Source: Parcubacteria group bacterium GW2011_GWA2_40_143 (GTDB lineage Bacteria > Patescibacteriota > Minisyncoccia > UBA9983). From it: a DNA stretch of 32,971 nt. The translations under genes were made by a program, and so were the position numbers. The notes below the pieces were generated by a model, which was given only the letters and a program-made list of their open reading frames with translations, ran no database searches and was not told where the DNA came from. This document shows positions 19,301-31,339 of the stretch, piece after piece. How positions within the stretch are numbered: position 1 is the stretch's first letter; each line of letters opens with the position of its first letter. Location of the stretch: positions 1-32,971 of the forward strand of contig LBYH01000008.1 in NCBI GenBank assembly GCA_000996035.1. Reading direction: 5' to 3'.

Positions 19301-20647
19301 TTATATTGGCTTTGCGCATTTTATTATGTTTACTTGCTTGGCCATTGATACTTTATGCGTTATATTAACAAAACCTATCTCCGTAAGAATTTTATCAATT
19401 TCTTCTTTTGCCAAGAAATGATACACGCCTCTGCGTCCTCTCTTTTCTATCTTTAAAGCTTGATTAAGTATCATCGGGCTATAATATATGTTTTTTTTAT
19501 CTTTGAAATCAAAAATATTTTTCCGCGACGCAACAAAAACTTTCCAAAAGCGAACACCCTTTTTAGGACTTGACCAAACAAAACCGCCTCCGGGTTTAAG
19601 TATTTCAAAAATATTTTTTAAAACGTTCTTAAAAGCCGCCAAATTTAAAGCATCATTATGACAAACAATATAAGGCAAAACAAGATTAGCGGTTACGCCG
19701 TCAAAACTGTTTTTTTCAAAATTAATTTGATCTCCCAAATCCAAAAACTCAACTCGTATATTATTTTTTTCTTTAAACCGATTTTTTAACTCTTCTATAA
19801 AATTATGTTCAAAATCAGTCGCTATTATTTCCGCGTTATTACTCGCGCCTTTTTCGTTCAAAATATTGACAATGGCGCCTGAACCGCTTCCAAGATCAAT
19901 CCATCTGCCCTTTACATCGCCAATGCTATTTTTGAAATCTTCAACCAGCTCTTTGTGCGGGTCGGCTTTTTCCAAATAATTATAAAATTTGCTGTAATTG
20001 CCCCAAAATTTTTGTTCCTTTTTCTTTACTATCTCAATCATTCGCGCTCGCGCGTCGCCAAGGGAATCATAAAACACTTTTATCATTTCTTCTTCAGATA
20101 AATGGCCGTTAATATATAAAGGTTTGCCAAAAAAAACCATTACCTTTTTTTGAAATTTAAATATCTTTTTCCAGCTTAAATTTTCCGCTCCGTACAAAAA
20201 AACAGGCACTATCGGGCGCATACTTTCTTTACTGATTAAAGGTATCAACTTATCTACCCTGCGCGCCAAGATCTCTTGTTTGTAGCACCATTCAAAAAAA
20301 ATGATAACTGATTTGCCACCCCACAATAGTTCAAGAGTTTTTCTCATTCCAGAATCTATCCCCTTATTCAATTTTCCGGGAAAAGCGCCCCAAACCTTAG
20401 CAAGTTTTCCAATAGTTGTTTTAAATAAACTATCTTCGGAAAAATAATAAATCGGGTGAAATTTTGAAAACGAAGTAAGGCTCATACTGATAATGGGAGG
20501 GTCAAAATAACTTCCATGATTGCTTGAAAAAATAACCGGTTTTTTTACATTTTTTAAATTCTCTCTGCCGTATATTTCCAAGCCGGCAAAAATCTTAAAG
20601 ATAATTCTAAGCGCCGGCAATGAAATAATGTGCATTATCTTTAACAT
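19301..20647 (-). CDS. Fusion of PlsC-like acyltransferase and SAM methyltransferase
   Basis: A two-domain, 448-aa protein. Residues 1-210 look like a PlsC/LPLAT acyltransferase: HX4D block SNHGSYFDPP (near 43-49) and the late block PIVPVFLYGAE. The usual EGG/FPEG block is replaced by FFEWCYK (near 116), so acceptor binding is altered. Residues 230-448 form a Rossmann methyltransferase with motif I IDLGSGSGAIVNIL (near 250), an acidic post-motif (ATDFEHNF) and LKPGGGFVWSSPKK. The fusion suggests sequential acylation and methylation of a lipid or related molecule (inference). It has no close operon partner; about 250 nt with no clear gene precedes it. Confidence 0.8.
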   Translation of the reverse strand: MLKIMHIISLPALRIIFKIFAGLEIYGRENLKNVKKPVIFSSNHGSYFDPPIISMSLTSFSKFHPIYYFSEDSLFKTTIGKLAKVWGAFPGKLNKGIDSGMRKTLELLWGGKSVIIFFEWCYKQEILARRVDKLIPLISKESMRPIVPVFLYGAENLSWKKIFKFQKKVMVFFGKPLYINGHLSEEEMIKVFYDSLGDARARMIEIVKKKEQKFWGNYSKFYNYLEKADPHKELVEDFKNSIGDVKGRWIDLGSGSGAIVNILNEKGASNNAEIIATDFEHNFIEELKNRFKEKNNIRVEFLDLGDQINFEKNSFDGVTANLVLPYIVCHNDALNLAAFKNVLKNIFEILKPGGGFVWSSPKKGVRFWKVFVASRKNIFDFKDKKNIYYSPMILNQALKIEKRGRRGVYHFLAKEEIDKILTEIGFVNITHKVSMAKQVNIIKCAKPI

Positions 20648-20893: not shown

Positions 20894-21574
20894 CTACTGC
20901 TCTATTATACCTTTGACACGCAAAAGAAAATCCTTAAAATCCTTTGTTGAAAAATATACTTCTTTTGTTTCATAAATATGAGTCGCTAGTTTAGGATAGT
21001 TTTGAAGACCGCCACGATCTATAAACCATGGCCAAAATTTTATAAAATCCTCATCATAACTCAGCATTACCCATGCAATAAGTTCAGATATCTCCCAGAG
21101 CTTGTGTTCGGTGTCATTTAAAAAAATATCTCTCAAGTGATTCCACAAATAGGCAATTAATATCTCATGCGCGGTTATTTTACGCATTGTAAAAGGATTT
21201 TCTCTCCACCCTCTAACAACGACATTATTACCCCAGCTCGCCAAGCCATGAAAAAAAGCTGTGACATGACAATCATAAACAGGAAAATGTGAACTAAGCT
21301 TTGTTTTTTTATTTATCAATTCAAAGAATTTATCATTTATTTCGTCCCATGAGTTTTGATACAACTTTGATGTTTTTTCGATAAAATGACCATAAGATTG
21401 ATAGAGCTTGCTTACATATAAATCAATATTTTTGTCGTTAATTTCTCCGTAGTTTTTTTCTATTTCCGGCCATATTGTATCAGCAAGATTTTTTTTATCC
21501 AGGTAGATGCTCTTAAGCAGCTCGGAATCACGCTGCTTATCCGAGAAGAAATTTAATTTAACATTTTTATTCAT
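20894..21574 (-). CDS. Cassette A terminal protein, HExxx protease-fold-like, metal site apparently lost
   Basis: A 226-aa protein of unrecognised family. Its middle shows AHEILIAYLWNHL followed 28 residues later by LWEISELIAWVMLS. This mirrors the HExxH protein of cassette C (FHEVIHFIFFDYC ... YWDLSEIFNVIILN), but the second His of HExxH is Ile here, so zinc binding is unlikely. I infer a divergent, perhaps catalytically dead, relative. There is no signal peptide or TM helix; it is rich in Trp, Tyr and Phe. The ORF track starts at 21616. I prefer ATG 21574 because TTGCAA-17-TATTAT ends six bases before it. It follows the maturase gene after a terminator and so may be expressed separately. 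Confidence 0.55.
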   Translation of the reverse strand: MNKNVKLNFFSDKQRDSELLKSIYLDKKNLADTIWPEIEKNYGEINDKNIDLYVSKLYQSYGHFIEKTSKLYQNSWDEINDKFFELINKKTKLSSHFPVYDCHVTAFFHGLASWGNNVVVRGWRENPFTMRKITAHEILIAYLWNHLRDIFLNDTEHKLWEISELIAWVMLSYDEDFIKFWPWFIDRGGLQNYPKLATHIYETKEVYFSTKDFKDFLLRVKGIIEQ

Positions 21575-21678: not shown

Positions 21679-23043
21679 TTAAACTAAAACAGGTTTCTGT
21701 GCCTTAGCTTTAATGCACAACCACAAATCTCTTATAATCCAATCTATTGTCATTTTGGCATGAACACAAAACCTCTCATCTAGTTCCCATATTGATCCTT
21801 TTGAAATTTCAGCGTCACAAGGACATCCACCACCGCACGTGCCAAGCGCGACGCAAGATTGACATTTTTCCATAGTGATAGGCGAACGTTTTTTCCATTC
21901 TTTGTATGTTGGGGTGTCCTCAACAATCAACTCATTGTCAAATACAGTCCCAACGAAATGCTTGCGCGATCCAATGTAACCATGGCAAATTCCGACTTGA
22001 CCATCTGGAGCAACAACTAATTGCCTACCGCCTCCGGCAGCACAATCGTATGGATGTATTTTCTGCTTTGAAAAAGAATTTATTTTCCGCATAATTCTAT
22101 CTTCATAGATTCCTTTTTCCCTGAAAATCTTATATGCGTTTATTATAAACTCAGCAGCTCTAGTCTCATAATCTTCTCTGAGTTTAATAGAATGTCCGCG
22201 AGCCAATATATTGAAACCTAAACCCTTGACCCCAATCTCATTAATCAAAAACTCGATAGTGCTTTTTTGATTTTTAATCGTTTCTTCGTTGATAGTGCAA
22301 GATATTCCAACAGGAATATCTTTACTTTTCAATAGTTTTATTTTTTTCATCACACGATCAAAAATCGGCTCTCCGTAAAAATCACGACGGTGTAGGTTGG
22401 TTGCAATTTTTTCACCATCAATAGATATTGAAACATTTACCTTTTTCTCGCGTATGAAATCCGCCAATTCAGATGTAAAGAATAGACCATTAGAAACCAT
22501 GTTAATGCTTAATGACTTTGGCAAGGATCCTTTTTCTTTAAGATGCGCAATATATTTTATGGCTTCCATAAAAACTTTTTTATTCATTAGTGGCTCGCCA
22601 CCATAAAATATAATTGTTTTTTTCTTCTCAAAGTAATCTGGATGTCGTTTTATGGCTTCAGCAAAAAAATCAATCGATTTTTTTGCCGTTTCGGTTGACA
22701 TAAAAATTCTACTTTGCTCTTCTGGTATTTGATTTTCTATAAAACAATAATCGCAAGCCAAATTACATGCATCTGTTAAAAGTAAGTACATAACAGAGAC
22801 TGGCGATGGTAAAGACATCAATGATTTTATTGTTTTGTCTAACAAGTTTTTATCTTCATCTTCTGATTTAACTACCATTCCAGCACTATATAACTTATCA
22901 CTATAAGCATCAAGTTTATTCAGTCCTTCTATTTGATTAATTAATTCTCTGGAAACAAATATGACTTTAATGTTTAGAGAATGATATAGTGCCACCATAT
23001 CTTTATCAACCGGTATTGTGTGAACAAATCTAGACAATTTCAT
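21679..23043 (-). CDS. Radical SAM/SPASM peptide maturase
   Basis: Predicted RiPP-modifying enzyme. It uses a 4Fe-4S cluster and S-adenosylmethionine to modify the Cys-rich peptide encoded just upstream. The 454-aa protein has an N-terminal region (about residues 1-80, SRFVHTIPVDKD...) like the peptide-recognition segment of SPASM maturases. The CxxxCxxC motif is CNLACDYC (C93, C97, C100), followed by GGEP (FYGGEPLM). The C-terminal SPASM region carries cysteines in YDCAAGGG, GICHGY, MEKCQSCVALGTCGGGCPCD and ERFCVHAK for auxiliary clusters. The track start at 23148 overlaps the precursor; ATG 23043 has AAGGAGGAT upstream and is chosen. Thioether (sactipeptide/ranthipeptide) formation is the likely reaction, but the bond type cannot be read from sequence. 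Confidence 0.9.
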   Translation of the reverse strand: MKLSRFVHTIPVDKDMVALYHSLNIKVIFVSRELINQIEGLNKLDAYSDKLYSAGMVVKSEDEDKNLLDKTIKSLMSLPSPVSVMYLLLTDACNLACDYCFIENQIPEEQSRIFMSTETAKKSIDFFAEAIKRHPDYFEKKKTIIFYGGEPLMNKKVFMEAIKYIAHLKEKGSLPKSLSINMVSNGLFFTSELADFIREKKVNVSISIDGEKIATNLHRRDFYGEPIFDRVMKKIKLLKSKDIPVGISCTINEETIKNQKSTIEFLINEIGVKGLGFNILARGHSIKLREDYETRAAEFIINAYKIFREKGIYEDRIMRKINSFSKQKIHPYDCAAGGGRQLVVAPDGQVGICHGYIGSRKHFVGTVFDNELIVEDTPTYKEWKKRSPITMEKCQSCVALGTCGGGCPCDAEISKGSIWELDERFCVHAKMTIDWIIRDLWLCIKAKAQKPVLV

Positions 23044-23079: not shown

Positions 23080-23113
23080 TGCACGCAAACATAGTACTTC
23101 ATGTTTGCGTGCA
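23080..23113. other. Hairpin between precursor and maturase genes
   Basis: A perfect 13-bp inverted repeat (TGCACGCAAACAT / ATGTTTGCGTGCA) with an 8-nt loop lies 14 nt after the precursor stop. No U-run follows on the minus strand, so it is more likely an mRNA-stabilising or attenuating structure that keeps precursor mRNA in excess over the maturase (inference) than a full terminator. Confidence 0.7.
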
Positions 23114-23126
23114 TTTCCCTGATGGC

Positions 23127-23276
23127 TCATGGATAACATGAACCGCAATCACAAGCACATTGACAATCGCAAGCCGTACAATTTAATCCATCAAATGATT
23201 CCATGTCTAAATTGCTCTTGATTTGAATTAAATCATTTTGATCCGGCTCGTAAAAAATTATCTCAATGTTCCCCAT
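23127..23276 (-). CDS. Cys-rich RiPP precursor peptide (49 aa)
   Basis: Found by reading the sequence upstream of the maturase; too short for the ORF track. The 49-aa peptide starts MGNIEIIFYEPDQND, runs through an acidic/hydrophobic leader, and ends NCTACDCQCACDCGSCYP with seven Cys in its last 17 residues (C33, C36, C38, C40, C42, C44, C47). An excellent ribosome-binding site AAAGGAGG lies 8 nt upstream. It sits 83 nt ahead of the radical SAM/SPASM gene, as precursors normally do. There is no GG cleavage motif at the expected border. The core is unlike the SCIFF pattern I know. It could give thioether crosslinks or a metal-binding peptide. Confidence 0.85.
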   Translation of the reverse strand: MGNIEIIFYEPDQNDLIQIKSNLDMESFDGLNCTACDCQCACDCGSCYP

Positions 23277-23278
23277 TT

Positions 23279-23347
23279 TTAACCTCCTTTCTTTTTTCTA
23301 ACTTTCCAAAAATAAAATACGGTTTGTGTTTTTTCTTTGTCGGTCAT
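23279..23347 (-). CDS. 22-aa leader peptide coupled to the precursor gene
   Basis: ATG at 23347 follows AAGAAAGGAGGT and encodes MTDKEKTQTVFYFWKVRKKKGG, stopping at TAA two bases before the precursor ATG. Its last codons (AAG AAA GGA GGT) are themselves the ribosome-binding site of the precursor, so translation of the two should be coupled. One caveat: the upstream GGAGGT directly abuts the ATG, leaving a very short spacing. The matching frame survives in the repeat copy at 30695-30757, with a two-codon deletion but no start codon. Confidence 0.5.
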   Translation of the reverse strand: MTDKEKTQTVFYFWKVRKKKGG

Positions 23348-23519
23348 ACCTCCTTTCTTGATTTAATGGTTATTTTTATTAATTTTTTAAAGAATCAATC
23401 TATTTTAGAGGCTACCATAGGGGGGGGGTAAAAGTCAATCGTAAGAAAAATTCGCGCTTCTGTTTTTTTACACCTCCGGTAACTCCACGCCCAACGTCAA
23501 ACCCCAATGTCAAGGTTGA
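23282..23519 (-). repeat. Promoter/leader repeat, copy A
   Basis: About 238 bp, homologous to copy C at 30695-30926. The outer 91 bp (23429-23519) are identical in both; the inner part, with promoter and leader, differs by scattered substitutions and short indels. Identity stops abruptly at ...AAGGTTGA on the plus strand, where the 3' end of the M20 peptidase gene begins. The outer end contains two tandem TTGAC[AG]TTGGG units. Confidence 0.85.
23409..23438 (-). promoter_or_regulatory. Poly-C-spacer promoter of cassette A
   Basis: Minus strand: -35 TTGACT (23433-23438), spacer of 18 nt containing nine C, extended -10 TATGG TAGCCT (-10 at 23409-23414). The -35 and extended -10 align with the reference promoter at 2451-2479. 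The homopolymer inside the spacer makes spacing sensitive to slippage. Confidence 0.6.
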
Positions 23520-24556
23520 GTCTCATGCAAACTTTTTTTGCTCACCCATTCATTTGCTTTATGGGCATTAAACGGACCAGGTCCGAGAATAATCATCTTT
23601 GATGCCATTTTTCCAAGAAAAGAGCCGTCAGTAAAATAATTTACTGAACCACTCTTATTGCCGGTGATTTTTTCTATATCAGAAATAAAATTTTCATCAT
23701 CGCATTGTACCGGCAGAACTGAAAATTTTGTTTCCACCCTGGCATTATATTTTTTCGCGATTTTCAAAAAGTTTTCAATTATCTTCTTGTTTTGTTTTTC
23801 TGCAACAGTGCGACATTCCACTTCTAAAACACACTCGGCTGGCACTTTATTAACAGCATCTCCTCCTTTAATTTTTCCAAAATTAATAGTGGTATAATTA
23901 GGAGAAAAAATATCATTTTTATAATCCTTTACGCCAGCAAAATATTCTTGAATTTCTTTAATAAAATCGCAAGCAAGAATTATGGCGTTTAGTCCTTTTT
24001 CCGGTTCGCTTCCGTGACATTCTTTGCCATAAAAATTAATCACAAAAGAAAGAATTCCCTTGGATGCAATCATCGGCTCAAGATTTGTTGGCTCTCCGAC
24101 AATAACATATTCAGTATTTATTTTTTCAGTTTTCATAAAATCAGTTATTCCTTCAAAGTTTGTTTCTTCATCATACGTGAGTAACAGATTGAAACCATTT
24201 TTGCAATTTTTAAAATTTATTTGCGATACTGCCGACAATAAAGAAGCAATCCCGCCCTTCATATCAGAACTGCCAAGCCCATAAATTTTATCTCCATCAA
24301 TTTTCATTGCAAAAGGATCAATCGTCCAGTTTTCCCCAGCAGAAATAGTGTCCGTGTGTCCTAAAAAGGTTAGGGCCGGTTTACTTCCAATTGTGACAAA
24401 TAGGCTTGCTTTGTTTGATTCTTTATTTTCCACTAATTCAATCTTAAAACCTAAAAGACACAGGAAGTTGGCTATCCATTTTACTATTTCATTATTATCC
24501 TTATCCTCAACCGTATTAAATTTTATTAATCTTTCTAAGATCTTTTCAATATTCAT
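23510..24556 (-). CDS. M20 family metallopeptidase/deacylase, C-terminus cut by repeat
   Basis: Member of the ArgE/DapE/CPG2-type M20 family, which uses two metals to hydrolyse amide bonds in peptides or N-acyl amino acids. Metal-site motifs are intact: GHTDT (H67, D69), GSSDMKGG (D98), DEE (E130-E131), GEP and the distal His in GPGPFNAHKANEWV. Residues about 170-290 form the dimerisation lid (HGSEPEKGLNAI). The protein stops at KKSLHETQP, about 15-20 residues earlier than usual, and the last codons and stop lie in the repeat, so the original 3' end has been replaced. Start 24556 has GAAGGA upstream. As the fourth gene of cassette B it may act on a histidine-containing peptide or conjugate (inference). 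Confidence 0.85.
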   Translation of the reverse strand: MNIEKILERLIKFNTVEDKDNNEIVKWIANFLCLLGFKIELVENKESNKASLFVTIGSKPALTFLGHTDTISAGENWTIDPFAMKIDGDKIYGLGSSDMKGGIASLLSAVSQINFKNCKNGFNLLLTYDEETNFEGITDFMKTEKINTEYVIVGEPTNLEPMIASKGILSFVINFYGKECHGSEPEKGLNAIILACDFIKEIQEYFAGVKDYKNDIFSPNYTTINFGKIKGGDAVNKVPAECVLEVECRTVAEKQNKKIIENFLKIAKKYNARVETKFSVLPVQCDDENFISDIEKITGNKSGSVNYFTDGSFLGKMASKMIILGPGPFNAHKANEWVSKKSLHETQP

Positions 24557-24631
24557 ATATTTTTTCCTTCTTCTTTTTCACTTTTTTCTCAAAGCGGATC
24601 TTTTCATGCTTTCGGATTTTAGCGGAAAGGG

Positions 24632-25354
24632 CTAAGACAAAAATTTTTCTTCTATACTTATTATTTCTCCAGAAATAAAAATTTTATTGCTCTTAATAAA
24701 AACCTTAAAAATGGAATTGCTAGGTTGCTTAATCTGAAACTTTTCTATTTTATATTTTGAATACATAAAATATGCTAATGCCATTGTCCCTGAACCACAA
24801 GCAGTTTCTTCAATTAAAGTATCTATATCTTTAACCCATATTATTGGTTTTATTGAAAATATATTTTTATTTTTCTTATAAGAAATTACACCTGATGCAG
24901 GAAAATTATTATAATTTTTTACTAATAGTTTTTTTGCTTCACTTTTTATTATTTCTTTATTCGTTATAAAATACGCAATTCCAGTTAAAAAACATGAATT
25001 TTTTGAACATCTAAAGTTATTTAAAGATAGCTTAATTTCAGAAGTATTATCTTCCACGGTTGCCTCAATAAAATTATCTTGCCCAGAAGATTCAAGTCTG
25101 ATTTTTGTTTTACCCGTATCATTTTTAATTAACATAGCAAGACACCGTAGCGCATTCCCACAAAATTCTCCTCCTGCCATTTCTAATCTCCCGTCGTTAT
25201 TTTTATCTTTTGCGCGCACCCAAAAACCTACCTGCTCAATAGTAGGATCCTTTTTCATTATTATTTTTGATAATTTTATTTTTTCCTTTTGGCTATAATC
25301 GCTTTTAACAATAGCAGTTATATTTCCACCTGGATTTACCTTGTAGTATTTCAT
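24632..25354 (-). CDS. CntK/DapF-like epimerase, probable histidine racemase
   Basis: A 240-aa PLP-independent racemase of the diaminopimelate-epimerase fold. It resembles CntK, the histidine racemase of staphylopine synthesis, more than DapF. Shared features from memory of CntK include N-terminal KxNPxGNxT, EQVGF, M-x-G-x-EFCGNA around the first catalytic Cys (C65), ENSCGSGT versus ETACGSGT around the second (near C184), and a late QP-x-x-SI motif. Both catalytic Cys are present. DapF is normally about 275 aa, so this is on the short side. The neighbouring HisRS makes L-His to D-His the preferred guess, but DapF-like activity on another amino acid cannot be excluded. No Shine-Dalgarno is visible; a hairpin ends 8 nt upstream. 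Confidence 0.75.
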   Translation of the reverse strand: MKYYKVNPGGNITAIVKSDYSQKEKIKLSKIIMKKDPTIEQVGFWVRAKDKNNDGRLEMAGGEFCGNALRCLAMLIKNDTGKTKIRLESSGQDNFIEATVEDNTSEIKLSLNNFRCSKNSCFLTGIAYFITNKEIIKSEAKKLLVKNYNNFPASGVISYKKNKNIFSIKPIIWVKDIDTLIEETACGSGTMALAYFMYSKYKIEKFQIKQPSNSIFKVFIKSNKIFISGEIISIEEKFLS

Positions 25355-25362
25355 AATAATAA

Positions 25363-25390
25363 AATGGGGGTGTTTAAAAACACCCCCATT
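25363..25390. terminator. Hairpin between the 313-aa gene and the racemase gene
   Basis: AATGGGGGTGTTT / AAACACCCCCATT, a perfect 13-bp inverted repeat with a 2-nt loop. It is followed on the minus strand by TTATTATT, so it could act as a weak intrinsic terminator. It ends 8 nt before the racemase ATG. Confidence 0.6.
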
Positions 25391-25405
25391 GATAAATTTG
25401 AAGCG

Positions 25406-26347
25406 TTATAATTCAGATATGAAATGCTTTAGTTTCTCATACCCTCGTTCAAGTACCTCCTTTGCAACCTCGTGTGGTAAAGAAAACTTTTCTACTCCCG
25501 CGAATTCTTGTAAAAGAATCTTGTAATCGCGGAGTATATTTTTTACCTTACCTTGGTTGCTGTCAAGCAATGAACTCAAGAGGCGAAACATTTCATCAAC
25601 ACTGTCTGGTAAATCACAACCAAACACTGGTTCATTTTCGTAACAGTAGTATGTGGGAGGATCGCCAATTTGCGTAAAGATTTGTGTTGATTTCCATTGC
25701 TCATGGAAACCCATCCTTTCAACCATTTGTTGCCGAAATCTATAGAATATTTTTTCTGCTGGACCACCGATCATGATTATGTGTTTATGATTTAAAGACA
25801 TTTCTTTGACCAGTAAACACTCTTTCATATTTGGAACATTGATCGGATCTCTCATGTAAAAAATATGTTCTATCATGTACTGAATTGCGTTCATTCCACC
25901 ACGCTTATCGGCAAATGCTTTAATCTGCTCATCTGATTGATATATTTTCAAAGCGGACGGCATTAGACTTTTAATAACGTTAGTAAACGCAGAGAATGTG
26001 CCACTATCAATTAAGACTTCAAGCTCAATCTGGTAAAAAGTTTTCACATATTTTTGTAAAGCTTTTTTTACTAAATCGCATGAGTTTTGATAGTTGTTAG
26101 AGTTTGCTCTTTCAACACCATGCTTTGCGATATATAGATTTATGGCTGGGTTGCCAAGCTGTGTAGAAAGTCGCATCACTGGTATGGGATAAGCAAGCAA
26201 TCGGATAGGAACTTTTTGATTAAGACCATATCCTTGAGCAAGACAGATTTCTTGATTTCTACTGGGTTTGATTTCTCGAAAGAATTTTCCAATTTTTCCG
26301 CCTTCGTTGTTTAAAAGGTTGGTGATAAGTTCGTCTCTGAATTTCAT
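25406..26347 (-). CDS. Unrecognised 313-aa alpha/beta protein of cassette B
   Basis: I do not recognise a family. The start at 26347 is chosen over the track start at 26389 because GAGGGG precedes that ATG. Predicted strands alternate with helices (IRLLAYPIPVMRLS; NLYIAKHGV; ELEVLIDSG; KHIIMIGGP), suggesting a Rossmann-like fold. A helical C-terminus follows (DEMFRLLSSLLDSN... EVLERGYEKLKHFI). No signal peptide or TM helix is seen. The segment IIMIGGPAEKIFYRFRQQMVERMG vaguely recalls the region of class I synthetases that binds substrate, but no HIGH or KMSKS motif is present. Its place between HisRS and a probable histidine racemase suggests it works on histidine or an activated histidine (inference). 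Confidence 0.7.
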   Translation of the reverse strand: MKFRDELITNLLNNEGGKIGKFFREIKPSRNQEICLAQGYGLNQKVPIRLLAYPIPVMRLSTQLGNPAINLYIAKHGVERANSNNYQNSCDLVKKALQKYVKTFYQIELEVLIDSGTFSAFTNVIKSLMPSALKIYQSDEQIKAFADKRGGMNAIQYMIEHIFYMRDPINVPNMKECLLVKEMSLNHKHIIMIGGPAEKIFYRFRQQMVERMGFHEQWKSTQIFTQIGDPPTYYCYENEPVFGCDLPDSVDEMFRLLSSLLDSNQGKVKNILRDYKILLQEFAGVEKFSLPHEVAKEVLERGYEKLKHFISEL

Positions 26348-26375
26348 TTTTTCCCCTCTTTTTGTAAAAGTAAGC

Positions 26376-26409
26376 GTCGACACTACCAAGCAACCTTGGT
26401 AGTGTCGAC
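26376..26409. other. Perfect 15-bp hairpin after the HisRS gene
   Basis: GTCGACACTACCAAG / CTTGGTAGTGTCGAC with a 4-nt loop, located 13 nt past the HisRS stop. There is no U-run on the minus strand, so it may protect or pause the transcript but is not a canonical terminator. Confidence 0.7.
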
Positions 26410-26422
26410 TTAGAAAATAATT

Positions 26423-27796
26423 TTACCTCACTTCAGCGCAAATATCATCCAAACCTGAAAAACGCTGTTCTCCCGTTTCAAGATTCTTAACCTGAACACC
26501 GTCATTGTTGACTTCATCATTCCCGGCAATAATAGCAAACTTAAATCCCTTCTTACTAGCGTATTTAAGTTGATCGCCTATTCGCTTTGAGTCAAAGAAA
26601 ACTTCTGTTTTAATGCCGCTGTTCCTCAATAAAGTGGCAATCTTGAAATAATAAGACATCAACGATTTATCCATTGAAGTGACTAACACCGGAGCTACAG
26701 TGGCCGGACCAGTTTTCAGTATTCCAGTTTTAAGCAATTGCGAAAAAAGTCTTGTTAATCCTATTGAGATTCCAACGCCTGGCATTTTTTTGTCACCAAA
26801 AAAACTCGTTAAATTGTCGTAGCGGCCGCCGGAACAAATACTTCCAATTTCAGGATAATCAACCAGCGTTGTTTCGTAAATCGTCCCAGTGTAATAATCC
26901 AAACCGCGAACAATACCAAGGTTAACTTTGTAGCTATCTTGAGGAATACCCAAGGTAGCCATGTGTCCAATCACTTGTTCGAGCTCGTCAACTCCTTGCA
27001 AAAACAATTCATTATCTATCTTGCAAGAACGAAGATATTCCATTATTTCATTGATTGGTTTGTTAATGCCGGCAAAATTAATTATGCCGTCAATAATGTC
27101 AGCGCCTATTCCTTTTTCCGCCATTGTTTCTCTTGTTTTGTCTACCCCGACTTTTTCAAGCTTGTCTATCGCATGCATAGCCTCGTTAATGCAATGGTTA
27201 GTTAATCCATAAAAGCTAAAATAGCCCTGAAGTATTTTCCTGTTATTCACTCCGATCATAAACTTCCCAATATTCATTTGTTTGAATATTTGGTAAATTA
27301 CACTCGGCATTTCAGCATCTACCAGAAGAGGCAAATCTTTATCTCCCACAACATCAATATCACATTGATAAAACTCGCGATACCGGCCGGACTGAGGCCT
27401 TTCACCTCTCCAAACTTTTTGAATCTGGTAGCGACGGAATGGAAAATTTAAAAGACTATAGTTTTGTGCGACATAGCGTGCCAACGGCACCGTTAAATCA
27501 AAATGAAGCGCCAAATTTTGGTCATTGTCACCAGAATAATTAGACAGACGCCCCAAAGTGTAGATTTCCCTGTCGTTAGATCCTTTAGCGATAAGCATGG
27601 CCGTTTTTTCAACAGCGCTTGTCTCTATCGGAGAAAATCCGTACTTTTCAAAATTGTCGCGTATGATGTCTAAAATTTTCTGCTCCAAAATTCTTTCTTC
27701 CGGCAACCATTCCGGGAAACATTTACATTGTAGCACATCCTTTCCATTCAATAAAAAGTTCGAAAAAACAGAATTGACAATTTTTGTCGGTTTCAC
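26423..27796 (-). CDS. hisS: Histidine--tRNA ligase (complete, possibly accessory)
   Basis: Class II synthetase for histidine, about 435-457 aa depending on start. Motif 1 region LPEERILEQK, motif 2 with RYQIQKVWRGERPQSGRYRE, the histidine pocket GLDYYTG (near 297), GGRYDNL, and motif 3 (PGVGISIGLTRLF) are intact. A C-terminal HGTP anticodon-binding domain follows (VLVTSMDKSLMS...). So this is a full HisRS and not a HisZ-like remnant. The track start (GTG 27796) sits inside the GGAGGTG ribosome-binding site and is doubtful; the N-terminal 20 codons are repeat-derived, and GTG 27736 is an alternative. It is driven by the poly-C promoter shared with two RiPP cassettes, which is odd for housekeeping. 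Whether the genome has another hisS decides its role. Confidence 0.85.
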   Translation of the reverse strand: MKPTKIVNSVFSNFLLNGKDVLQCKCFPEWLPEERILEQKILDIIRDNFEKYGFSPIETSAVEKTAMLIAKGSNDREIYTLGRLSNYSGDNDQNLALHFDLTVPLARYVAQNYSLLNFPFRRYQIQKVWRGERPQSGRYREFYQCDIDVVGDKDLPLLVDAEMPSVIYQIFKQMNIGKFMIGVNNRKILQGYFSFYGLTNHCINEAMHAIDKLEKVGVDKTRETMAEKGIGADIIDGIINFAGINKPINEIMEYLRSCKIDNELFLQGVDELEQVIGHMATLGIPQDSYKVNLGIVRGLDYYTGTIYETTLVDYPEIGSICSGGRYDNLTSFFGDKKMPGVGISIGLTRLFSQLLKTGILKTGPATVAPVLVTSMDKSLMSYYFKIATLLRNSGIKTEVFFDSKRIGDQLKYASKKGFKFAIIAGNDEVNNDGVQVKNLETGEQRFSGLDDICAEVR

Positions 27797-27880
27797 CTCC
27801 TTTCTTAGCTTTAGTTTCGGTTAATTTTTAAAGAACTTATTTAAGTTAAAGGCTACCATAGGGGGGGGGTAAAAAGTCAA
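27775..27880 (-). repeat. Promoter/leader repeat, copy B (partial)
   Basis: This copy shares the -35/poly-C/extended -10 block, the TTCTTTAAAAA-TTAA stretch and AAGAAAGGAGGTGAAACCGACAAA with copies A and C, but lacks the outer 70-odd bp. After ACCGACAAA it runs into HisRS codons. The leader-peptide frame can still be traced (ETDKNCQFCFFELFIEWKGCATM), but without a start codon. Confidence 0.7.
27850..27880 (-). promoter_or_regulatory. Poly-C-spacer promoter of cassette B
   Basis: Minus strand: -35 TTGACT (27875-27880), 19-nt spacer with nine C, extended -10 TATGG TAGCCT (-10 at 27850-27855). Confidence 0.6.
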
Positions 27881-28101: not shown

Positions 28102-28767
28102 TTACGACAACGCAACCAGACTTTCTTTTATAAACTTTTCCATATTACCATCGCTTTCTTGCCATTTTTTTTCAATTATTGAATAAATTTCTTTATGTTT
28201 TGGATAAAATATTTTCTCTTGCTTTTTAATAATTTTTTGAAACGCCAATTGATTTAAAATAATAACATTGAATATTTCCGACAGATCCCAATATTTGCCT
28301 TGATTTTGATCCATGCCGTTTACTATACCGCCAAGATTAGCGCGACAATAATCAAAGAAAATAAAATGAATAACTTCATGAAAAATAACCCTCAATTTAT
28401 CTTGATTGCTTCTTTTGTAATATACTTGAAAAACATTTTTATCCAAATACCTTGGATTGCAATCAAAAATTGACAATGTTCCACAATATTCTTTGCTTGA
28501 AAAATCTTGTTTGAAAATATCTTTCACGGCGTTAAAAAAATCAACTTGCCTTTGTTGCGCTAGATCATTAATTTCCAATAACGATTTTGTTAATTCTTCT
28601 TTGTTTTTATCATAATAATCGTTTATATATTCTTGATAATTGTCTTTACTTACGGTTGGATGACTTTTAATTATTTTTTCACCAAAATCAACACCTCCCG
28701 CTTTTAATTCAAAGAAGTTCAGAAAGGTTTCTTTATCCAAATTTTTATCTAAAGTTATTTTTATCAT
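28102..28767 (-). CDS. Cassette C HExxH putative zinc metalloprotease
   Basis: A 221-aa cytoplasmic protein with FHEVIHFIFFDYC, a classic HExxH zinc motif. The acidic third-ligand candidate is in WDLSEIFNVIILN, 33 residues after the motif Glu, which suits a gluzincin-like site. There is no signal peptide or TM helix. The rest is helical and Lys-rich. No named family is recognised. It is the last intact gene of the graspetide cassette, and the corresponding position in cassette A holds a protein with the same layout but HEILI. A leader peptidase or a resistance/processing protease for the modified peptide is a reasonable guess. The start 28767 has no Shine-Dalgarno but has a -10 nine bases upstream. 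Confidence 0.65.
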   Translation of the reverse strand: MIKITLDKNLDKETFLNFFELKAGGVDFGEKIIKSHPTVSKDNYQEYINDYYDKNKEELTKSLLEINDLAQQRQVDFFNAVKDIFKQDFSSKEYCGTLSIFDCNPRYLDKNVFQVYYKRSNQDKLRVIFHEVIHFIFFDYCRANLGGIVNGMDQNQGKYWDLSEIFNVIILNQLAFQKIIKKQEKIFYPKHKEIYSIIEKKWQESDGNMEKFIKESLVALS

Positions 28768-28776
28768 TATGTGTAA

Positions 28777-28804
28777 ATAATAAGAGCTCCTCTGTAAAAA
28801 TCAA
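28777..28804 (-). promoter_or_regulatory. Candidate promoter of the HExxH gene, embedded in a hairpin
   Basis: Minus strand: -35 TTGATT (28799-28804), 16-nt spacer, -10 TATTAT (28777-28782), nine bases to the ATG. It overlaps the inverted repeat at 28782-28815. Confidence 0.45.
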
Positions 28805-28815
28805 GAGGAGCTCTT
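28782..28815. other. Hairpin between ATP-grasp and HExxH genes
   Basis: AAGAGCTCCTCT / AGAGGAGCTCTT, a perfect 12-bp stem with a 10-nt loop, followed on the minus strand by ATTATTTA. It could terminate transcription weakly or protect the ATP-grasp mRNA end. Confidence 0.65.
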
Positions 28816-28903
28816 TAAGATCTGTTTATAAAGATCCCATTCCCATACTAAGAAATCCATTATTTCTTTTAACTTCGAAATAGTGTCTTTATCAACATAA
28901 TTA

Positions 28904-29896
28904 TTAGAAATGATACTGCTCGGGTGCGACAAGAAGTTCAGCGATAGCTTCCCCAATCGGCAATCCCGTTAAACGTTCAATCCAAAGCCATTGTCCATTG
29001 GGGTTTATCTCGAGAAAAACGTAGTTATTTTGTGGCGTAACAATTACGTCAATGCATCCGAAAGCAAGGCCTAATTGACGTACGAGCGTCCGACATTTTT
29101 CTTCAATCTCTACTGGAAGCTCAAACGATTCATGTGGCGTATTAGCCAAGTCGTAATGTCGCCAATCTTCTCGCGTTCTTTCAGACTTCTGCGAAAAGAT
29201 TGCGCAGGCAAAAACCTTATCACCTACAACTGTAATTCTAATTTCAAACTTTTTCGGTACATATTCCTGTATGATAGTGGGACAATTTTGCAATTGTTTT
29301 AGCATACCTTGAAGATTATCTGCATCCATGCGTTTTGTATACATAATTAGTGAATCAACACCATTGTGTTCCTGAAACTCAATGCTAGGCATACATATAG
29401 TTTTAAGCGCTACTTCGTCAAGGTCGTCAAGAAACTTATATGCCGCCTGCGCTGAGTTTGTAATCAATGTCTTAGGAATATTAAAACCAATAGACTTGGC
29501 TACCAATAATTGATACGATTTTCTTGAAGCTACGCCAATTGCATCAGGGTCACTAAGCCAGAATACCGATGGCGAGAGGATTTGTGGCAATGAATCAAGA
29601 AAAAATTGGGATTCTCTAGTTATATATTCCCTTACATTTTGACTATTTACCCCAATTGGCGGAGAGGGAGCGCCTTTGCGGCGATTCCAAACGCTCTTTA
29701 CATCACGACAGTCAATCAAATTTTGTCCAACAGACAATCGAACAAAATTTGAATCCACAGAGACTTCAAAACTAATGCTACTTTTTTTTGGGTAAGTTGA
29801 AAAATCAAAGAGTAAATGGCACACGCCCTTTCTAGTTAAAATCTCACTCACATATTGGCAATGAGCGTCATCTGGATTTGACAATACAAAGATCAT
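28904..29896 (-). CDS. ATP-grasp RiPP ligase (MvdD/graspetide synthetase type)
   Basis: A 330-aa ATP-grasp enzyme predicted to join side-chain carboxylates of Asp/Glu to Ser/Thr hydroxyls or Lys amines in a precursor peptide, using ATP via acyl-phosphate. It has the marks of MvdD/MvdC-type maturases and not of RimK: the N-terminal SVWNRRKGAP (W70-R73), the central KTLITN and ALKTI strand, the RITVVGDKVFACAIFSQ segment, EDWRHYD, and the Mg/ATP motif FLEINPNGQWLWIE (near 301-314). Its start has a perfect AAAGGAGGT site that overlaps the end of the DUF6624 gene (stop and start nearly adjacent), so the two are translationally coupled. The likely substrate is the 60-aa peptide at 30507-30689. Confidence 0.92.
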   Translation of the reverse strand: MIFVLSNPDDAHCQYVSEILTRKGVCHLLFDFSTYPKKSSISFEVSVDSNFVRLSVGQNLIDCRDVKSVWNRRKGAPSPPIGVNSQNVREYITRESQFFLDSLPQILSPSVFWLSDPDAIGVASRKSYQLLVAKSIGFNIPKTLITNSAQAAYKFLDDLDEVALKTICMPSIEFQEHNGVDSLIMYTKRMDADNLQGMLKQLQNCPTIIQEYVPKKFEIRITVVGDKVFACAIFSQKSERTREDWRHYDLANTPHESFELPVEIEEKCRTLVRQLGLAFGCIDVIVTPQNNYVFLEINPNGQWLWIERLTGLPIGEAIAELLVAPEQYHF

Positions 29897-29897
29897 T

Positions 29898-30440
29898 TTA
29901 GACCTCCTTTATATTTTTTCTTTTGTTTTTTTTATTCAAACCAACATTCAATCTTAACCGTTTCATGTTGACAGTAAACGATTCAAGGCCAGCATTTTTT
30001 CTTCGTCTTGCTAAATTTTTTTTATCTCTAATAAGATAAGGTTTCAAAAGATTTTGTTCTGATTCATAACGAAACTGAGTGCCATAAATCTGCTTTTTCC
30101 TATTTTTAACAAGCATGCGATCAATCAAATAAGCAAGATTTTTTTTACTCGCTTCTCCTATTTTTACTGCTTTTTTTATAAGACACAAACATTTTTCTTG
30201 GAATTTAACATCATGATCAGCATGTTGGGCAATTAACCATGCGGCATCTGCCGCCTTTTCACCAACTAAACTTTTACCAGGCCAACCATATTTATTGATT
30301 ATCTTCTTGAGTTTTTCAGTATTTTTCATATCAACATTTGCATTCCAATTAGACCGTTTTTTCATAAAAAGTTTTCTCATTTTTTGGTCTCTTTCAATCA
30401 TCAACAACAGGGATTCTTTGATTTTTTTATTGGGGACCAT
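29898..30440 (-). CDS. DUF6624-like protein of the graspetide cassette
   Basis: A basic, helical protein of up to 180 aa. It shows a pattern I associate with DUF6624: DQxxR near the N-terminus, L-x-x-I-I-x-x-x-G-W-P (IINKYGWPGKSLVG), AAxAAWLIAQHADHD, then LAYLIDRMLV and QIYGTQ. No enzymatic role is established to my knowledge; conserved His/Asp/Gln suggest a binding or catalytic site. It is wedged between precursor and ligase and coupled to the ligase, which points to a role in peptide maturation. The start is uncertain: ATG 30440 lies inside a hairpin and lacks a Shine-Dalgarno, and ATG 30401 is an alternative that keeps the DQxxR motif. The C-terminus (LNKKNKRKNIKEV) is strongly basic. Confidence 0.75.
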   Translation of the reverse strand: MVPNKKIKESLLLMIERDQKMRKLFMKKRSNWNANVDMKNTEKLKKIINKYGWPGKSLVGEKAADAAWLIAQHADHDVKFQEKCLCLIKKAVKIGEASKKNLAYLIDRMLVKNRKKQIYGTQFRYESEQNLLKPYLIRDKKNLARRRKNAGLESFTVNMKRLRLNVGLNKKNKRKNIKEV

Positions 30441-30487
30441 ATATACTAAATCATACTAGAGTTTGGTTTAGTAGTCTATGGTCCCCA
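30431..30487. other. Two-part hairpin between graspetide precursor and DUF6624 gene
   Basis: TGGGGACCAT / ATGGTCCCCA (10 bp) and, inside it, TACTAAA / TTTAGTA (7 bp) after a small internal loop. On the mRNA the 3' arm covers the putative DUF6624 start codon at 30440, so it may both end or protect precursor mRNA and limit downstream translation. Confidence 0.65.
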
Positions 30488-30506
30488 TTTTTTATGGATG
30501 ATTATT

Positions 30507-30689
30507 TCAATCCGTATCGTATGATCCAGGTCCATCCGGGTGAGACATGCTTTCTTCTCCCGCAAACCTCGTTCCCATATCAATATTATAATTTCCTCGC
30601 TTAGCTGGTTCCCCAAACAAAAACATCAATGGGATCATTTCTAAATTATCACCCGGAAAAAATTCCTTTAAATCATTCATTTTGTTCAT
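30507..30689 (-). CDS. Graspetide-like RiPP precursor peptide (60 aa)
   Basis: A 60-aa peptide with a leader containing PLMFLF, which fits the P-x-x-x-x-F spacing of the microviridin leader helix (PFFARF). The acidic, hydroxyl-rich C-terminus is TRFAGEESMSHPDGPGSYDTD in two parts, TRFAGEESMSH and PDGPGSYDTD. RFAGEE resembles the R-[YF]-A-G-E-[DE] cores of ATP-grasp target peptides. Acceptors (Ser, Thr) and donors (Glu, Asp) are closely spaced for macrolactone formation. The track start at 30698 is a GTG inside the ribosome-binding site; ATG 30689 with GGGAGGTG upstream is the better start. It heads cassette C and precedes the DUF6624 and ATP-grasp genes. Confidence 0.85.
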   Translation of the reverse strand: MNKMNDLKEFFPGDNLEMIPLMFLFGEPAKRGNYNIDMGTRFAGEESMSHPDGPGSYDTD

Positions 30690-30694
30690 TGCTA

Positions 30695-30757
30695 TCACCT
30701 CCCTTTTCTTCCTAAAATTTCCAGAAAATAAAATACGGTCTTTTCTTTGTCGGTCTC
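30695..30757 (-). pseudogene. Degenerate leader-peptide frame in repeat copy C
   Basis: The frame (E)TDKEKTVFYFLEILGRKGR aligns with the 22-aa leader peptide of copy A but has GAG in place of the ATG and a two-codon deletion. Its end again supplies the Shine-Dalgarno of the following precursor. Probably not translated unless an unusual start is used. Confidence 0.45.
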
Positions 30758-30817
30758 ACCTCCTTTCTTGATTAATGGTTATTTTTATTAAATTTTCAAA
30801 GAATCAATCTGTCTTAG

Positions 30818-30845
30818 AGACTACCACGGGGGGGGTAAAAGTCAA
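30818..30845 (-). promoter_or_regulatory. Poly-C-spacer promoter of cassette C
   Basis: Minus strand: -35 TTGACT (30840-30845), 16-nt spacer with eight C, extended -10 GTGG TAGTCT (-10 at 30818-30823). The spacer is 2-3 nt shorter than in copies A and B. Confidence 0.6.
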
Positions 30846-30913
30846 TCGTAAGAAAAATTCGCGCTTCTGTTTTTTTACACCTCCGGTAACTCCACGCCCA
30901 ACGTCAAACCCCA

Positions 30914-31339
30914 ATGTCAAGGTTGACGGCTGGTCGCTCGGTAAATGAGAATTGTGTCAAAGACTTTGAGGCCGTTCTCGCCACCGTAAAATTCACGGAA
31001 TACAATGCTTCTACTCAGACCACAATGCACATACAACTTCTCGGTCTTACCTCGAAAAGTCAAACTGTATTGCCCGTTTTACAATATAGTGTTGACGGAA
31101 ATGTTAGCGGTAACAGCTACGTTAGTATCGTTAGCCAGAGTTCGGGAGCGACAATTTGGACCATGGAGCAAGAACCATCAGGTACGCACGACATTGACCT
31201 AAACACACTTACCGCAATTGGCGGTTCTCCAGTGAAAATTACTAATGGATATATTTCTTGCGAGTTCTGGACAAATTCGCTGATAACACAGGCGACGCTC
31301 TTCTGGAGTGCACCACTCCCAGCAAGTGTGTTGCAGTGA
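30914..31339 (+). CDS. Plus-strand hypothetical protein, probably 5'-truncated
   Basis: A 141-aa ORF, the only plausible plus-strand gene here. Its body (from about residue 15) reads like a beta-rich structural domain (TTMHIQLLGLTSKS; LQYSVDGNVSGNSYVSIVSQSSG; GGSPVKITNGYISCEFWTN). The first codons, ATG TCA AGG TTG A, come from the end of repeat copy C, and no ribosome-binding site precedes them. The natural reading is the 3' part of an older gene whose 5' end was replaced by the repeat. No family is recognised. Composition is less AT-rich than the island. Confidence 0.45.
   Translation: MSRLTAGRSVNENCVKDFEAVLATVKFTEYNASTQTTMHIQLLGLTSKSQTVLPVLQYSVDGNVSGNSYVSIVSQSSGATIWTMEQEPSGTHDIDLNTLTAIGGSPVKITNGYISCEFWTNSLITQATLFWSAPLPASVLQ

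Follow-up and report, generated by a model that had tools for sequence, protein, structure and literature searches.

A probable FibroRumin-type peptide cassette in a Parcubacteria genome and its promoter-like C-tract element, found also before other radical SAM and peptide-like genes

The described system closest to the locus that we discuss here is the FibroRumin group, in which a radical SAM/SPASM maturase (curated model TIGR04136) has a short, Cys-rich precursor with a C-x-C core (TIGR04135) directly upstream. The family is known and its chemistry is uncharacterised; in a literature search we found no characterised FibroRumin-family product. The closest solved fold, on the other hand, is that of CteB (5wgg), the maturase of the SCIFF ranthipeptides, a thioether-forming SPASM enzyme with an RRE. 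A third point of comparison is provided by the class III lanthipeptides, the leaders of which are removed by M1 proteases (PMC10885120). These leader peptidases (EryP and AplP) have the M1-type catalytic fold that is predicted for the protein encoded next to our maturase, which differs from them in being a single 226-aa domain without the second His of HEXXH.

By the window we mean the whole stretch of DNA analysed, i.e., 32,971 nucleotides of contig LBYH01000008.1 of Parcubacteria group bacterium GW2011_GWA2_40_143. Its source is a tiny bacterium from a barely cultured group. All features are collected in Table 1.

Table 1. Positions of the features of the window and what each assignment is based on
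Feature	Position	Strand	Basis
M1-like (gluzincin fold) partner, 226 aa, HEILI..E instead of HEXXH..E	20894..21574	-	family adjacency, AlphaFold2 model, structure matches
Radical SAM/SPASM peptide maturase, 454 aa, RRE-like N-terminus	21679..23043	-	TIGR04136, PF04055
Perfect 14-bp stem-loop in the precursor-maturase gap	23080..23113	-	dG -24.6, z -5.0
Cys-rich precursor peptide, 49 aa	23127..23276	-	ORF with SD, homologous ORFs at the same place, leader motif
Core CTACDCQCACDCGSC	23136..23180	-	ORF translation, core statistics
Leader recognition motif FYEPDQNDLIQIKSNLD, residues 8-24	23205..23255	-	PSSM match
240-bp promoter/5'-UTR duplicate, 89.6% identical to 30697-30926	23282..23519	-	sequence comparison
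Shine-Dalgarno GGAGG of the precursor	23283..23287	-	sequence
Promoter-like TTGACT-TTTACCCCCCCCCTATGG-TAGCCT, C9 in the -35/-10 spacer	23409..23438	-	pattern and position
Third window copy of the C-tract promoter, before the second HisRS gene	27854..27880	-	pattern search
Intact HEVIH..E paralogue of the partner	28102..28767	-	sequence comparison with the partner family
MvdC/MvdD-like ATP-grasp peptide maturase	28904..29896	-	TIGR04187, 228 bits (cut-off of 350 not reached); PF21068
DUF6624 protein	29898..30440	-	PF20329, E 2.7e-21
Candidate graspetide precursor MNKMNDLKEFFPGDNLEMIPLMFLFGEPAKRGNYNIDMGTRFAGEESMSHPDGPGSYDTD	30507..30689	-	ORF with SD; DUF6624 and ATP-grasp genes next to it
Second copy of the 240-bp region, before the graspetide cassette	30697..30926	-	sequence comparison

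The initial annotation had pointed to an ORF with a strong ribosome-binding site and a seven-Cys core directly ahead of the radical SAM gene, and had read it as a RiPP-type precursor. This ORF (ATG start, translation MGNIEIIFYEPDQNDLIQIKSNLDMESFDGLNCTACDCQCACDCGSCYP) is real. Its Shine-Dalgarno sequence AAAGAAAGGAGG lies 6 nt ahead of the ATG, 83 nt separate it from the maturase start, and the Cys residues stand at C33, 36, 38, 40, 42, 44, and 47, including the single CX3D unit (C33-D37) that had been claimed. With seven Cys in 15 aa it is the densest ORF of the window, in which the runner-up has four; such a density was reached in none of 300 dinucleotide shuffles of the window (shuffle maximum of six).

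The maturase most likely starts with the ATG at 23043 (MKLSRFVHTIP...), as its own Shine-Dalgarno sequence (AAGGAGG) and the alignment with homologues suggest, and the TTG at 23148 from which a long ORF can be called is unlikely to be the genuine start. The enzyme matches TIGR04136 (the "FibroRumin" maturase) over its full length with 387.1 bits (E 1.1e-115), which is 13 bits short of the curated cut-off (400 bits), and TIGR04136 is the sole family found at E 1e-60 for all 24 maturases aligned. The CX3CX2C motif (C92/C96/C99) and seven SPASM cysteines (C333, C352, C393, C396, C402, C406, and C425) are invariant among the 24 homologues. In the AlphaFold2 model (pLDDT 90.8), residues 6-76 are predicted to follow the beta3-alpha3 order of an RRE, and the closest structures are CteB and TigE (8vpo).

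How does this pair relate to the described systems? In a tree, the maturase falls into a clade (support 100/97) with the canonical FibroRumin enzymes of Kosakonia, Lachnospiraceae, and Atopobium, and its peptide combines the leader common to the family with a Cys-rich C-x-C core. Searched at E 0.1, the window peptide matches no family, TIGR04135 included; homologous precursors range from 59 bits down to no match with this model, those of Kosakonia scoring above its cut-off. As TIGR04136 is missed narrowly and TIGR04135 fully, the window pair is a divergent member of the FibroRumin family. It also differs in its surroundings, having an M1-like peptidase as a neighbor, whereas the canonical clade has a UvrA-like ATPase (~710 aa, directly downstream of the maturase at six loci, most of which have two precursor types). 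From SCIFF it is set apart by the maturase, which scores 122 bits with the SCIFF model (cut-off of 425), and by the different Cys pattern of SCIFF precursors. The Cys pattern, correctly described before as unlike those of SCIFF and subtilosin, is nonetheless not new in kind, being that of the FibroRumin group.

The pairing of peptide and maturase recurs in other genomes. A Cys-rich ORF was present on the upstream sense strand at 45 of 53 maturase loci, compared with seven on the opposite strand upstream and two and eight in the downstream controls; at a threshold of at least six Cys per 25 aa, 25 loci had such an ORF upstream in sense orientation versus one, zero, and zero in the controls. Removing three duplicate loci and three matches inside a neighboring SPASM gene leaves about 41 positives among 50 distinct loci from many phyla, and two loci scored as misses have three-Cys peptides with a similar leader. 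A lack of conserved Cys-rich ORFs ahead of homologous maturases, which the initial annotation had named as the outcome that would speak against its proposal, is thus not what the genomes contain. Instead, the pairing, together with the shared leader, supports a RiPP-type precursor served by a SPASM maturase. Examples of upstream peptides are found in Okeania (...CNCGGCSCSTCSCGG...), Kosakonia (MARCACVACNSCTCACSCR and QCTGCMCNCRCSC), and Patescibacteria (ARCACVCHNPCACKCNCACLCDC and PCDCTACGSCRCTPC). Maturase homologues occur in 10 of 379 sampled genomes of the phylum and 17 of 383 of the class; many Patescibacteria have them, and they are also present in Cyanobacteria, Bacteroidota, Bacillota, Actinomycetota, Pseudomonadota, Spirochaetota, Thermotogota, and Chloroflexota. 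Far homologues (about 28% identity) have a different peptide partner and were kept apart from the pairing set; at six such loci the partner has the pattern LCGVxGCCPxxxF...DDFGGxVxLTxxQW.

The leaders of the family follow the pattern [hydrophobic]-x-[IV]-P-[ST]-x3-[YF]-x2-[VILM]-x-G-x-[IVL], derived from aligned leaders with the window peptide excluded. Against a PSSM that was likewise built without it, the window leader scores 10.1 bits, its own shuffles averaging -6.6 (p=0.001), and it has Ser in place of the conserved Gly, the most conserved position of the motif. Among 44 non-redundant cores, C-x-C is commoner than expected (140 versus 82, z 9), the enrichment is still stronger for C-x-C-x-C (z 13), and C-C is nearly missing (4 observed versus 86 expected, z -13.5). 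Some cores have just three or four Cys. The worry raised earlier that seven Cys leave an odd one if all pair is right as to the count, but odd numbers are ordinary in this family (24 of the 44 cores). This speaks against simple pairing by disulfides and poses no problem for Cys-to-carbon thioethers.

Taken together, we consider it likely that we are dealing with a FibroRumin-type RiPP cassette, in which the 49-aa precursor undergoes leader-guided radical thioether cross-linking by the adjacent SPASM enzyme. The maturase would bind residues 8-24 of the leader through its RRE-like N-terminal domain and, by means of one radical SAM cluster plus two auxiliary iron-sulfur clusters, would join the core Cys sulfurs to carbons of other residues. 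As a first guess, these could be S-to-Calpha (sactionine-like) links formed with the small residues that separate the Cys. The acceptors of sactipeptides are chemically diverse (PMC8326336), which fits with the small, mixed residues found there. SPASM enzymes of the same fold do other chemistry as well, so that both the thioethers and their regiochemistry are put forward here as an inference. The product is probably an exported peptide with an antagonistic or signaling role; no exporter or immunity gene was found adjacent to the cassette.

Could the linkage be a different one? The CX3D unit had prompted an Asp-linked reading, in which a PapB-like enzyme would connect, within C-x3-D units, Cys sulfur to the Asp beta-carbon and yield a ranthipeptide. 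The window core has one such unit, PapB accepts C-x0-6-D spacing (PMC9413430), and PapB ranks second among the NCBIfam models matched by our maturase. This match (162 bits) is, however, far below the PapB cut-off of 340, many cores are devoid of Asp and Glu, and C-x3-[DE] shows no enrichment among the 44 non-redundant cores (7 observed versus 9.1 expected). The Asp-linked reading is therefore unlikely.

The gap between precursor and maturase contains a hairpin, which is a common feature of these loci: 28 of 35 homologous gaps have a fold z below -2 (median z of -3.5). Many of the homologous hairpins end in a T-run, and no T-run follows the stem-loop of the window. In the simplest reading, the hairpin is a leaky terminator or a processing site favoring the precursor mRNA, and as part of the proposed cassette it would keep the precursor transcript in excess. 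Since in most loci the radical SAM gene is immediately preceded by a hairpin, and this in turn by a short ORF rich in Cys codons, one might also think of a Cys-responsive leader peptide that is not itself a product; stalling at its Cys codons would then govern a terminator hairpin. We find this very unlikely, given that the leader motif is conserved at the amino acid level, that many members have conserved tails after the core, and that the distance between Cys codons and hairpin varies. Moreover, two cassettes on contig C11 have the same promoter and a hairpin with peptides of only one Cys, and the curated family model already labels these peptides as RiPP precursors. Alternating C-x-C clusters resemble those of metallothioneins, but a metal-binding peptide, with a maturase that acts elsewhere or only trims it, is highly improbable given that peptide and SPASM maturase occur one-to-one across many phyla, that the leader is shared, and that there are cores with only three or four Cys.

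Next to be considered in the FibroRumin-type cassette is the removal of the leader. Directly downstream of the maturase lies the M1-like partner. About 25 distinct maturase homologues also have a member of its family next to them, in some cases on the other strand; most Patescibacteria loci have a small M1-like HEXXH metallopeptidase. Throughout the family the His-Glu pair is invariant, the later Glu is nearly so, and most members have HEXXH. The window partner retains the His, the Glu, and the third-ligand Glu, with the second zinc-binding His replaced (HEILI), as it is in its four nearest relatives, so that the HEXXH plus downstream Glu by which gluzincins are recognized is incomplete. Its sequence has no firm match in Pfam, NCBIfam, or the PDB, and for one family member there is a weak match to YydH/LiaK, the epipeptide metalloprotease. 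With the AlphaFold2 model (pLDDT 90.2), Foldseek gave no E below 0.001, and only a second aligner returned a coherent list, in which all 50 matches listed are catalytic domains of M1-type peptidases (Z up to 9.6; EryP is among them with Z 8.7). By the aligner's own guidance a Z near 9 is moderate, yet the matches are all of one kind and the active-site motif of the partner fits with them. The family as a whole probably supplies the leader peptidase. As the adjacent partner has a broken HEXXH, the leader might be removed either by this protein or by its intact paralogue, which is part of a candidate graspetide cassette ~6 kb away. The latter cassette spans 28102-30689 (minus strand) and comprises the precursor, DUF6624, ATP-grasp, and peptidase genes; at one homologous locus, too, an ATP-grasp and a DUF6624 gene lie within a few kb of the Cys-rich cassette.

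Other neighbors deserve a short description. Between the two cassettes, an operon-like run (23510-27796, minus strand) encodes a second full-length HisRS, a 314-aa protein, a histidine-racemase-like DapF homologue (which scores higher with the CntK/HisR models than with that of DapF), and an ArgE/DapE-like deacylase; the housekeeping HisRS copy is on contig C7. Downstream of the Cys-rich cassette there is an acyltransferase fused to a class I methyltransferase (19301-20647, minus strand).

What is new here is the region upstream. A promoter/5'-UTR element with a C-tract, TTGACTTTTA-C(6-9)-..TGGTAGCCT with a conserved 5'-UTR behind it, was located by pattern search in about ten copies in the genome, namely at 23409-23438, 27854-27880, and 30822-30845 in the window and in about seven further places on contigs C4 and C11. 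A search of 382 other genomes of the class returned no copy in the strict form. Judging by consensus and position, the element would be a promoter: the C-tract sits between -35-like and extended -10-like boxes, is mostly C6-9 (in one copy broken by a T), and lies in spacers of 14-19 nt. The variation in tract length and spacing suggests slippage-prone, phase-variable promoters. In the 5'-UTR of the precursor, an SD-like AAGGAGGT (23330-23350) lies just 5' of a 22-codon frame (MTDKEKTQTVFYFWKVRKKKGG); this frame is not kept between the 5'-UTR copies and hence probably matters at the RNA level.

Downstream of the copies we find the Cys-rich cassette, the graspetide cassette, the second HisRS operon with its histidine-racemase-like gene, a truncated hisS, a pair of TrpC-like and B12 radical SAM genes, and another three radical SAM genes, as well as a 46-aa peptide (ending GKDGCGY) with hairpin, radical SAM gene, and Peptidase_MA-like protein and a 32-aa peptide (ending NTCSTSGSYK) with hairpin and radical SAM gene. 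The last two are peptide, hairpin, and radical SAM/SPASM cassettes on contig C11 (L129, 1085-3406 and 8380-9643). Of the 12 radical SAM genes of the genome, seven follow a copy at a distance of no more than about 3 kb; the number expected is ~0.25 by estimate, although five of the seven share one contig. The common element before radical SAM genes and peptide-like ORFs suggests one, unexpected, regulon. More tentatively, and with rather less than even confidence, we propose that this 0.73-Mb Patescibacterium genome has a dedicated specialized-metabolite regulon of about ten phase-variable C-tract elements, with at least four RiPP-like cassettes (the Cys-rich FibroRumin type, the graspetide, and the two other peptide and radical SAM pairs), radical SAM genes, and the HisRS/racemase-like operon.

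For the FibroRumin family, the ~45 natural precursors with a defined leader and C-x-C cores make the chemistry directly testable, given that we found no characterised product. The small M1-like metallopeptidases offer a candidate leader protease and, at the same time, a marker for finding more such clusters. For the organism, the retention of several pathways for peptide modification in an ultra-small genome, apparently with a single type of promoter, is relevant to the interactions of Patescibacteria with hosts or rivals. If the proposed regulon is true, phase-variable expression would give different peptide sets among the cells of one clone.
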